Positions 57,049-59,345 of a stretch of DNA of 64,000 nt are shown here, piece by piece. The stretch is from Salinigranum marinum (GTDB lineage: Archaea > Halobacteriota > Halobacteria > Halobacteriales > Haloferacaceae). The stretch is from the NCBI RefSeq assembly GCF_024228675.1, contig NZ_CP100461.1:1488001-1552000 (forward strand), given 5' to 3'. A program made the translations under genes and the position numbers. Position 1 is the stretch's first letter; each line of letters starts with the position of its first letter. Below the pieces are notes generated by a model that saw only the letters and a program-made list of their open reading frames with translations, did not search any database and was not told the origin of the DNA.

Positions 57049-57351
57049 GTGGAGCCGTCCGCTCGCCGCCGCGCAGGAGATCTGATTCTCATGGCGGAAA
57101 ACCGGAGTGTCAGCACTAAGTAGTGGAGTTCCTACCATCGGGCATATGGGTCTCTTCGTCGTCTCGTGGGCGTTTCTCGGCTACGTGCTCGCGTACGGTG
57201 GTGCAACACTCGTCTGTGCGGTCGCACTCGTCCGCGCGCGGCGGATCGACGACGCCGAGACCCGCCGCGGACTCGTCGCGCTCATCGCCGGGAGTGGGGG
57301 CTGGGCCGCGTGGGAACTCGGCTTCCTGGTCGCACCGACCCCCCGGTTGCA

Positions 57352-57358
57352 GTACGGC
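57352..57358 (+). repeat. Target duplication of the 405-bp element, left copy (GTACGGC)
   Basis: GTACGGC at 57352-57358 and 57764-57770. Removing the element and one copy restores the kinase frame exactly. Confidence 0.8.
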
Positions 57359-57432
57359 GAGCGTGTCATAGAACTCTTCACACACTATAGTCAGTTTGAT
57401 TACTATTATATCAGGTTATTAGCTCAGAAGTA

Positions 57433-57449
57433 CGTGCACTCGGTGCACG
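57433..57449. promoter_or_regulatory. Palindrome 1 flanking the element's RHH gene
   Basis: CGTGCAC-TCG-GTGCACG, a 7-base half-site repeated inverted across a 3-base spacer. It lies 15 bases beyond the stop of the RHH gene. Confidence 0.6.
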
Positions 57450-57463
57450 GAGTTCAAAACCAG

Positions 57464-57664
57464 TCAGAGAGTGCCCTTTCGTTTCCGAATAATGATTTCT
57501 CGCACCCGTTCAACGTGGTTCGTCTCGGAGTGAACGAACGCTGTGAGGATGGCTTCGACGATCTCGGAGCGGCTGGCTCCGAGATCGTCACACTCAGCGA
57601 CCAATTCATCCACTTTTCGCACGATTTCCCCGTCAACAGCGACTCCGAACTTCTCTTTTGCCAT
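57464..57664 (-). CDS. Ribbon-helix-helix DNA-binding protein inside the element
   Basis: 66 residues: MAKEKFGVAVDGEIVRKVDE, then LGASRSEIVEAILTAFVHSE and a basic tail (RVREIIIRKRKGTL). A strand followed by two helices is the RHH/CopG-MetJ pattern. Between inverted palindromes it is likely to bind its own promoter (palindrome at 57687, 23 bases upstream of the start) and the opposite end. A gene of this sort in so short an element is unusual. An alternative is a toxin-antitoxin relic. Confidence 0.75.
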   Translation of the reverse strand: MAKEKFGVAVDGEIVRKVDELVAECDDLGASRSEIVEAILTAFVHSETNHVERVREIIIRKRKGTL

Positions 57665-57686
57665 AGCTAAAACAATCTGAGAACAG

Positions 57687-57703
57687 CGTGCACCAAGTGC
57701 ACG
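57687..57703. promoter_or_regulatory. Palindrome 2 flanking the element's RHH gene
   Basis: CGTGCAC-CAA-GTGCACG, with the same half-sites and spacer length as 57433-57449. It lies 23-39 bases before the RHH start, over the promoter, so self-repression is plausible. Confidence 0.65.
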
Positions 57704-59345
57704 GCGGTTTCAATTTGTCTAAGCTGATTCAGCGAGCCATGTGAACTCTTCTATGACACGCTCGTACGGCAGCTATCTCGTCAGCCTGGTAGTCGGCCTC
57801 ACGACCGTCGGTGCCTGGCTGTACTTCTGCTCGGCGTACACCCACCGCTCGTTCCACACGGACCCGACCTACCGGCGGGCCGCGGTCGCGGTGTATCTCG
57901 CCATCGTCGCGGTGAAGCTCACGAACCCGTTCCACGGGATCTACTTCACGACCGAGTTCGTGACGGAGCCGTTCCCCCACCTGACCGTCATACACGGGAC
58001 GTTCCACTGGATCGTCTCCGGGCTCTCGTACGCGCTCGTCGCCGTCGGCTTCTTCATGCTGTACGAGCTGTTCCTCGAATCCGACTACGATACCCGCCCC
58101 CTCGGGATCGTCGCGGCCATCACCGGCCTCCCGGTGGTGTTCGACATCGTCGGCTTCGCCAGTACGAGCCTCATCGACATCAACTACGAACCGCTCGGCG
58201 TCGCCGTCTTCGCCGTCGGGGTGCTGTACGTCTTCGAGGAGGAGTTCCTGGCCGTCCAGCTCACGGACGGCGTCGACGACGCGGTGGTGTACCTGGACGA
58301 CGACGGGCGGATCCGGCAGTTCAACGACCGGGCTCGGGCGCTGTTTCCGTCGCTGGCGGGCGCGCCGGGTGCCTCGTTCAGCGCCGTGCTCCCGGACGCG
58401 GCGGCCCGCCTCGGCACCGACGAGCCGGTGCTCGACCGCACCCGCGACGGGGAGACGCGGTACTACCTCGTGAGCGACACCGCCTTCACCATGGGCCAGA
58501 CCGACATCGGACGGCTCGTGGTCTTCACCGACGTGACCAACACGGAGCGCCAGCGCCGGGAACTCGACCGACAGAACGAACAGCTCGAAGGGTTCGCCGC
58601 CGCGATCAGACACGAACTGCTCAACACGCTCCAGATCGTCAGCGGGCGGGTGACCATCGCCGGGGAAGCGCTCGAAAGCGGCGACGTACAGACCGCCCGG
58701 GAGTCGTTGCGGACGGCCTCGCGAACGGCCGACCGGATGTCGGACATCGTCGGCGACCTGGCGGAGCTCGCGCGACACGGGCAGACGCTGGAGGGCACCG
58801 ACTGCGTCGACCTGGCGGCGACCACCGAAGCCGCCTGGGACGCAGTCGACACCGGCGACGTCTCGCTGTCGGTCGACGCCGACGGACAGGTCGACGCCGA
58901 CAGGGGTCGCGTCCACGGGCTCTTCGAGAGCGCCTTCGCCTTCGCGGTCCACAACGACGCGTCGACGGTCGCGGTCGCCCTCGACGACGACGGCTTTTCG
59001 ATCACCGACGACGGCCACCCCGTGGGCGATGACGCGCCCGAGGACTTCTTCCGGTACGGCGTCTCCGTCCCCGACGCGGCGTCCGGGATGCTCCTGCCGA
59101 ACCTCCGGATGCTCGCCCGCACCCACGGCTGGGAGGCGACGATCGACACCGCCTACACCGACGGGATCCGGATCGTCGTGCGCGGCGTCGGCGTCCGACG
59201 CAGGCGCGAGCAGGCCGCCTGAGCGCACCGCCTCGGAGCGAGTCGTCACCGACGCGAACCCGCGTGACCGCCGGTGGTCGCGTCGGGGCAGTCGAACGCC
59301 CCGGCGGACAGAACCGCTTTCTCCCCACGCTTCGTCCCTCCCGGC

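Follow-up and report, generated by a model that had tools for sequence, protein, structure and literature searches.

A MITEHsal2-like element of Salinigranum marinum and the RHH gene-palindrome cassette that it shares with ISH2 and other transposase-free elements of Halobacteria

The common view of MITEs is that they are empty passengers of the transposase of another element. In the window, i.e. the whole 64,000-nucleotide stretch of Salinigranum marinum DNA that was analysed, a small element interrupting a histidine-kinase gene contains a gene for a ribbon-helix-helix (RHH) protein between two matched palindromes. This raises a question that is testable in genetically tractable archaea, namely whether a MITE uses a protein of its own to control how it moves. 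The original prediction had described a non-autonomous mobile element with an RHH gene between two palindromes. This description was borne out, and both gene and palindromes appear to be under selection. The features of the locus are the following.

57146..57358, plus strand: histidine-kinase gene, interrupted, 5' part (flank joining and congener alignment)
57352..57358: target-site duplication (TSD) GTACGGC, 7 bp, flank repeat
57359..57763: whole non-autonomous element, 405 bp, matching MITEHsal2, with ISH11-type ends
57359..57373, plus strand: terminal inverted repeat (TIR) GAGCGTGTCATAGAA; the same end is found on a ~1069-bp ISH11-like IS of this genome and on ISH11 of NRC-1
57406..57411, plus strand: TATA-like motif TTATAT ahead of the downstream palindrome, directed inwards and antisense to the RHH gene; a putative promoter motif
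57433..57449: downstream operator-like palindrome CGTGCAC-TCG-GTGCACG, 15 bp past the stop codon; the one retained in gene-less derivatives
57464..57664, minus strand: RHH (CopG-like) protein gene, 66 aa, intact (ORF, Pfam, purifying selection)
57688..57704: upstream operator-like palindrome, core GTGCAC-CAA-GTGCAC; in most copies this 15-bp core starts 38 bp ahead of the start codon
57749..57763, minus strand: other TIR, a perfect match to GAGCGTGTCATAGAA on the opposite strand
57764..57770: TSD GTACGGC, 7 bp, flank repeat
57771..59222, plus strand: histidine-kinase gene, interrupted, 3' part (flank joining and congener alignment)

Re-reading of the sequence confirmed that the element spans exactly 57359-57763, as given earlier. 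Its ends match perfectly over 15 bp, and across 25 nt their complementarity is 88%; the 15-bp ends are expected 0.00 times by chance in the 64-kb window while 2 were found. When the flanks are joined, a single open histidine-kinase frame of 554 aa is obtained, 535 aa of which align with 0 gaps and 77-78% identity to the orthologues of three congeneric genomes, where the gene is uninterrupted. Since this alignment is gap-free, the joined flanks represent the empty site, and the claim that the element has 15-bp inverted ends and a 7-bp duplication restoring the kinase frame proved exact.

The element is present as a single copy in its own genome. It had been foreseen that a single-copy sequence without relatives would speak against a mobile element; the search for relatives found it to be multicopy elsewhere, so that this is not the case. 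Relatives of 82-96% identity, mostly of exactly 404-405 bp and with TSDs mostly of 6-9 bp, are found in many Halobacteria, a single genome often having several of them. For instance, Halomicrobium katesii carries about 10 copies of a 395-bp version in one genome. Of 391 Halobacteria genomes searched with a protein profile, 48 contain RHH relatives, and a scan of viral contigs as a possible source returned no relative. A full-length IS with the same ends, which the prediction had proposed to look for, was also found. It is ISH11-type (IS5-type) and about 1069 bp long, and ISH11 of NRC-1 likewise has ends matching the 405-bp element. Moreover, the own genome contains at least 10 intact copies of the ISH11-type transposase, and the six loci examined have the element's ends. 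The shared ends and the size of the TSD thus suggest that an ISH11-type transposase moves the 405-bp element in trans. The ORF did not turn out to be a piece of a transposase either: no larger IS containing it was seen, all RHH relatives with resolvable ends sitting in transposase-free elements.

Concerning its name, MITEHsal2, which is multicopy in Halobacterium salinarum 91-R6, measures 405 bp without its TSDs of 6-8 bp (413-8 and 411-6; PMC10264941), and the window copy has 405 bp with a 7-bp TSD. The pHSAL2 plasmid of 91-R6 carries a 405-bp copy that is 84.6% identical and is annotated RHH CopG. The name was assigned by length, TSD and strain as tabulated in PMC10264941 together with this plasmid copy, and since these match, the element is very probably of this known, named kind. 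The statement that no family of this design was known is therefore not supported, the more so as ISH2-type MITEs with an ORF had already been reported. In the passages found in PMC10264941, MITEHsal2 is a table entry as a MITE only, with no mention there of the RHH gene, the palindromes or the link to ISH2.

The assignment of the 66-aa protein to the RHH proteins is marginal by profile. Its match to Pfam RHH_1 (E=0.0014) falls narrowly short of the curated cut-off, and the L228 protein, a closer relative in this family, passes it (E=8e-05). The AlphaFold model (pLDDT 82) has three helices, and the predicted helices are consistent with an RHH protein. Foldseek matches of the model were non-significant, among them the CopG-DNA structure 1ea4 and an antitoxin. 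Comparison of 24 ORFs in 275 pairs gave an NG86 dN/dS of 0.138, which indicates that the gene is under purifying selection. Together with the low entropy of the palindromes, this led to the rejection of the idea that the gene is a neutral relic.

The CGTGCAC-N3-GTGCACG palindrome reported on both sides of the gene was confirmed at 57433-57449 and 57688-57704. For GTGCACN3GTGCAC, 0.01 occurrences are expected in the 64-kb window and 2 were found, both palindromes being parts of one 28-bp direct repeat. Among 27 distinct ISH11-ended elements, mean column entropy was 0.07-0.08 in the TIRs and 0.15 and 0.09 in the palindrome arms, compared with 0.60-0.98 in other non-coding DNA and 1.06 in the centre of the downstream palindrome. 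By this measure of alignment columns, the palindrome arms are conserved about as strongly as the ends of the element. The TTATAT motif, located about 25 bp ahead of the downstream palindrome, is also conserved in most of these 27 elements.

Do the palindromes belong to the ends or to the gene? A catalogue of 103 RHH modules was assembled, the completeness of which is bounded by the search thresholds and the sampled genomes. Both palindromes were recognisable in 82 of 91 modules, in which one precedes the start codon by 33-39 bp and the other follows the stop codon at 5-15 bp, whatever the ends. The distance between them is 242-255 bp across end types (254, 251 and 242-243 bp), whereas the distance from operator to end varies from 51 to 136 bp between element types. 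Because the distances to the gene are fixed and those to the ends vary, the palindromes belong to the gene cassette and not to the ends. A shared helical phase of the operators was considered and rejected, spacings of 254, 251 and 242 bp being out of phase.

The resolvable ends of the catalogued modules fall into three classes, the ends of several modules being undefinable.

Class 1: ISH11-type ends; 395-405 bp; TSD mostly 6-9 bp
Class 2: ISH8-type ends; 496-606 bp (521-522 bp, including ISH2; also 496-509 and 606 bp); TSD 10-11 bp
Class 3: ends CTGTCKCGTTTCGAG; 416-417 bp; TSD 8 bp

A tree of the RHH proteins, built on few columns, gives strong support to a position of the ISH8-ended module L228 beside the ISH11-ended clade; its well-supported branches cannot be explained with fewer than two changes for ISH8-type ends. 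The catalogue shows the RHH gene with its two putative operators to be a portable cassette enclosed by ends of at least three IS classes in Halobacteria, including those of the long-studied ISH2. This ~521-bp MITE is mobilised by ISH8 (PMC10264941, PMC3119063). ISH2-type MITEs were known to contain an expressed ORF that is not a transposase (PMC3119063; PMC10134880), and the ISH2 protein VNG_0210H was detected by mass spectrometry (PMC10134880). This ORF was found to be a homologue of the window RHH gene, about 53% identical at the protein level and flanked by the same two palindromes, and on pNRC200 it is the sole annotated gene lying wholly within ISH2. On the contrary, the ends of ISH2 (CATTCGTCTTTAGTTAAG, IS4/ISH8 transposase family, TSD 10-11 bp) are unrelated to those of the window element, which are ISH11-type with a TSD of 7 bp. 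In the open-access literature, no text was found that calls the ISH2 ORF an RHH protein or notes the two palindromes.

Several further modules and a possible partner were seen during this survey. A likely partner of class 3 is an IS of 1.42-1.47 kb with ends CTGTCNCGTTTCGAG (L300, 1501-2922; L301, 46-1517), which encodes a DDE transposase of 385-401 aa; its nearest named relative is ISHth3, and its nearest named relatives are annotated IS4. In Halococcus thailandensis, an RHH module (L229, the same as locus L204) lies between CACTSGTTATCGCTTTAGC inverted repeats, possibly a fourth type of end, and its downstream segment is duplicated beside an N gap. RHH relatives beginning MAREKFGVALS (L270, L271, L276) have an upstream CTGTGCACCCGGTGCACAG palindrome and no downstream one; their 3' ends are broken or fused, and they are apparently decaying modules of another type.

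The protein and its candidate sites have changed together. In RHH proteins, the segment around residue 5 is expected to form the DNA-reading strand. In a clade whose proteins begin with MSNTEF, E replaces K at this residue, and both flanking palindromes read GTTGCAG-N3-CTGCAAC. Among the scored modules, K5 proteins go with GTGCAC palindromes in 83 of 83 cases and E5 proteins with TTGCAG sites in 8 of 8, none being crossed; as a single clade is concerned, the change counts as one event. A joint change of both sites would be the outcome expected if one protein binds both. The two versions have the core TGCA-N5-TGCA in common. In the sequence of pMV158, this core is present once, upstream of copG, for a chance expectation of 0.00. 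CopG of pMV158 is an RHH autorepressor that shares with the window system the operator-like core upstream of the gene and the spacing of the half-sites, and it represses the copG-repB replication operon (PMC6607859). The window element differs from it in having no second gene and two operators, one on each side. From the conservation of the palindromes, their joint change and the CopG-like core, it is very probable that the RHH protein binds both palindromes, and autorepression through the upstream one appears probable too.

In the own genome, four exact GTGCACN3GTGCAC sites exist, all at RHH modules and none away from them. With up to one mismatch, 12 sites were counted versus 14 for a reversed-pattern control, i.e. 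no excess. Control of the neighbouring gene by the RHH protein, as had been suggested, is thus left unsupported, exact sites being confined to RHH modules. Two other RHH modules of this genome, both of ISH8-type, are a 496-bp ISH8-ended element with a 10-bp TSD ATCTCCGACC (C1 near 2787328) and an ISH2-like module whose downstream palindrome is degraded (C3 near 208088). The idea that the transposase gene is repressed through the same operator was rejected, as ISH11 and ISH8B of NRC-1 contain no TGCA-N5-TGCA palindrome. Other ISH11-ended elements without the RHH palindrome also exist, and the site is therefore not required for ISH11-type mobilisation.

A family of derivatives that have lost the gene bears on the role of the downstream operator. 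Fourteen of its members were compared. All have ISH11-type ends and a length of 262-264 bp, and in them a common ancestral deletion removed the N-terminal half of the RHH gene, the promoter and the upstream palindrome; the remaining portion of the gene has decayed. Although their mean pairwise identity is only 0.64, the downstream palindrome is retained in 14 of 14, at 74-76 bp from an end (73-75 bp in): seven are exact, four have one change, two have three changes, and in one the two changes are symmetric and leave the dyad symmetry complete. With an entropy of 0.270, the palindrome ranks first in conservation among 203 internal windows (0.552 for the next one, 0.899 for the median) and comes close to the TIRs of these elements (0.22-0.26). 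The TTATAT motif is not conserved among them. An operator retained without its gene should have a use beyond RHH expression, and this conservation implies a second job of the downstream operator for the mobile DNA itself. The family stems from one deletion, so that the retention represents one lineage, however diverged.

The explanation that best accounts for the whole, and that is judged somewhat better than even, is a self-repressor of the CopG kind, the sites of which have a use for the element as well. The element, mobilised in trans by an ISH11-type transposase, would encode in its only gene a protein that binds both flanking palindromes. At the upstream one it would repress its own promoter, and at the downstream one it would act as an accessory or timing factor that modulates transposition; gene-less copies would use protein from any copy present in the cell. 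Such modulation from the downstream operator, by a protein from any copy, is the most likely form of the second job. That the operator acts on the movement of the element is in itself a possibility put somewhat below an even chance. It is proposed more tentatively still that there is a class of MITEs encoding their own accessory transposition factor (the RHH protein and its operators). This factor would pass between elements of unrelated transposases, and gene-less derivatives with one operator would make use of it in trans. If so, what defines these elements would be the control cassette that they have in common and not their ends.

A different use of the same parts would be copy-number self-limitation, in which the protein bound near the ends hinders the transposase so that more copies give fewer jumps, just as plasmid copy number is limited by CopG. 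The CopG-like core, the autoregulatory geometry of palindromes and gene, and the site kept by gene-less copies for a protein made in trans all fit with it. Yet gene-less elements escaping control should lose an inhibitory site, which is instead their best-conserved internal stretch, and ISH11 and ISH8B of NRC-1 are without the site, so self-limitation is considered unlikely. For the first of these reasons an accessory role is preferred, with low certainty. Similarly unlikely is a purely transcriptional function of both operators, the downstream one controlling a promoter near the left end that is directed inwards (giving an antisense RNA against the RHH gene, or control of read-through). The conserved TATA-like motif before the downstream palindrome of the 405-bp elements points in this direction, but in the gene-less derivatives this motif is not conserved while the operator is.

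The original prediction had also suggested that the protein bridges the two ends. By bridging the two operators it would pair or loop the element and so help directly in the synapsis of the ends. This proposal is suited by the presence of two matched operators, both in direct orientation, and by their spacing, which is apparently held within each of its values while protein length and stop-to-operator distance change. However, the variable operator-to-end distance, the single operator of the gene-less derivatives and spacings differing by non-integral helical turns make it more doubtful still. The least probable reading is that of a passenger beneficial to the host, i.e. a mobile insertion cassette with a regulator of host genes. 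ISH11-type ends do bound other cargo in relatives (an Rce1-like protease, a PQQ beta-propeller and a lipoprotein-like protein), but the confinement of exact sites to RHH modules and the lack of excess of near matches in the own genome argue against it.

Part of the picture was already available: the kind of element (MITEHsal2) and ISH2 as a MITE with an expressed ORF (PMC10264941, PMC3119063). The new findings are the palindrome-RHH-palindrome cassette common to ISH11-type, ISH2-like and third-class elements, the purifying selection on the RHH gene, palindromes about as conserved as the ends, the joint change of sites and residue 5 (K5E), and the palindrome kept in gene-less derivatives. Supposedly empty jumping elements thus seem to carry a shared control unit, a selected protein-and-operator cassette that recurs and whose operator outlives the gene in derived elements.

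In its organisation, the window element corresponds to the mobile insertion cassettes (MIC231, mic-qnrD; PMC3913671), with two IS-type inverted ends, a TSD and a cargo gene in place of a transposase. The cargo of those cassettes consists of enzymes useful to the host or resistance genes (PMC3913671), whereas here the cargo gene encodes a DNA-binding protein, and the sites of this protein apparently sit on its own type of element only.

Other dispersed small repeats, of ~150 bp (genome G095; L106-L111 near 2001) and about 297 bp (genome G099; L113-L119, 1781-2077), were observed, each with one GTGCACN3GTGCAC palindrome but lacking an RHH gene; the longer repeat occurs in seven places with 88-99% identity. 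ISH11-type ends were also found around other transposase-free cargo elements of ~1.0-1.5 kb (L056, 3193-4675; L057, 4005-5041; L061, 493-1838; L067, 2875-4024). The cargo of these four loci comprises a PQQ beta-propeller protein, a lipoprotein-like protein, an unnamed 322-aa protein and an Rce1-like (CAAX) protease, and two of the elements have 8-10-bp TSDs. Mobile insertion cassettes of the ISH11 type may therefore be common in haloarchaea.
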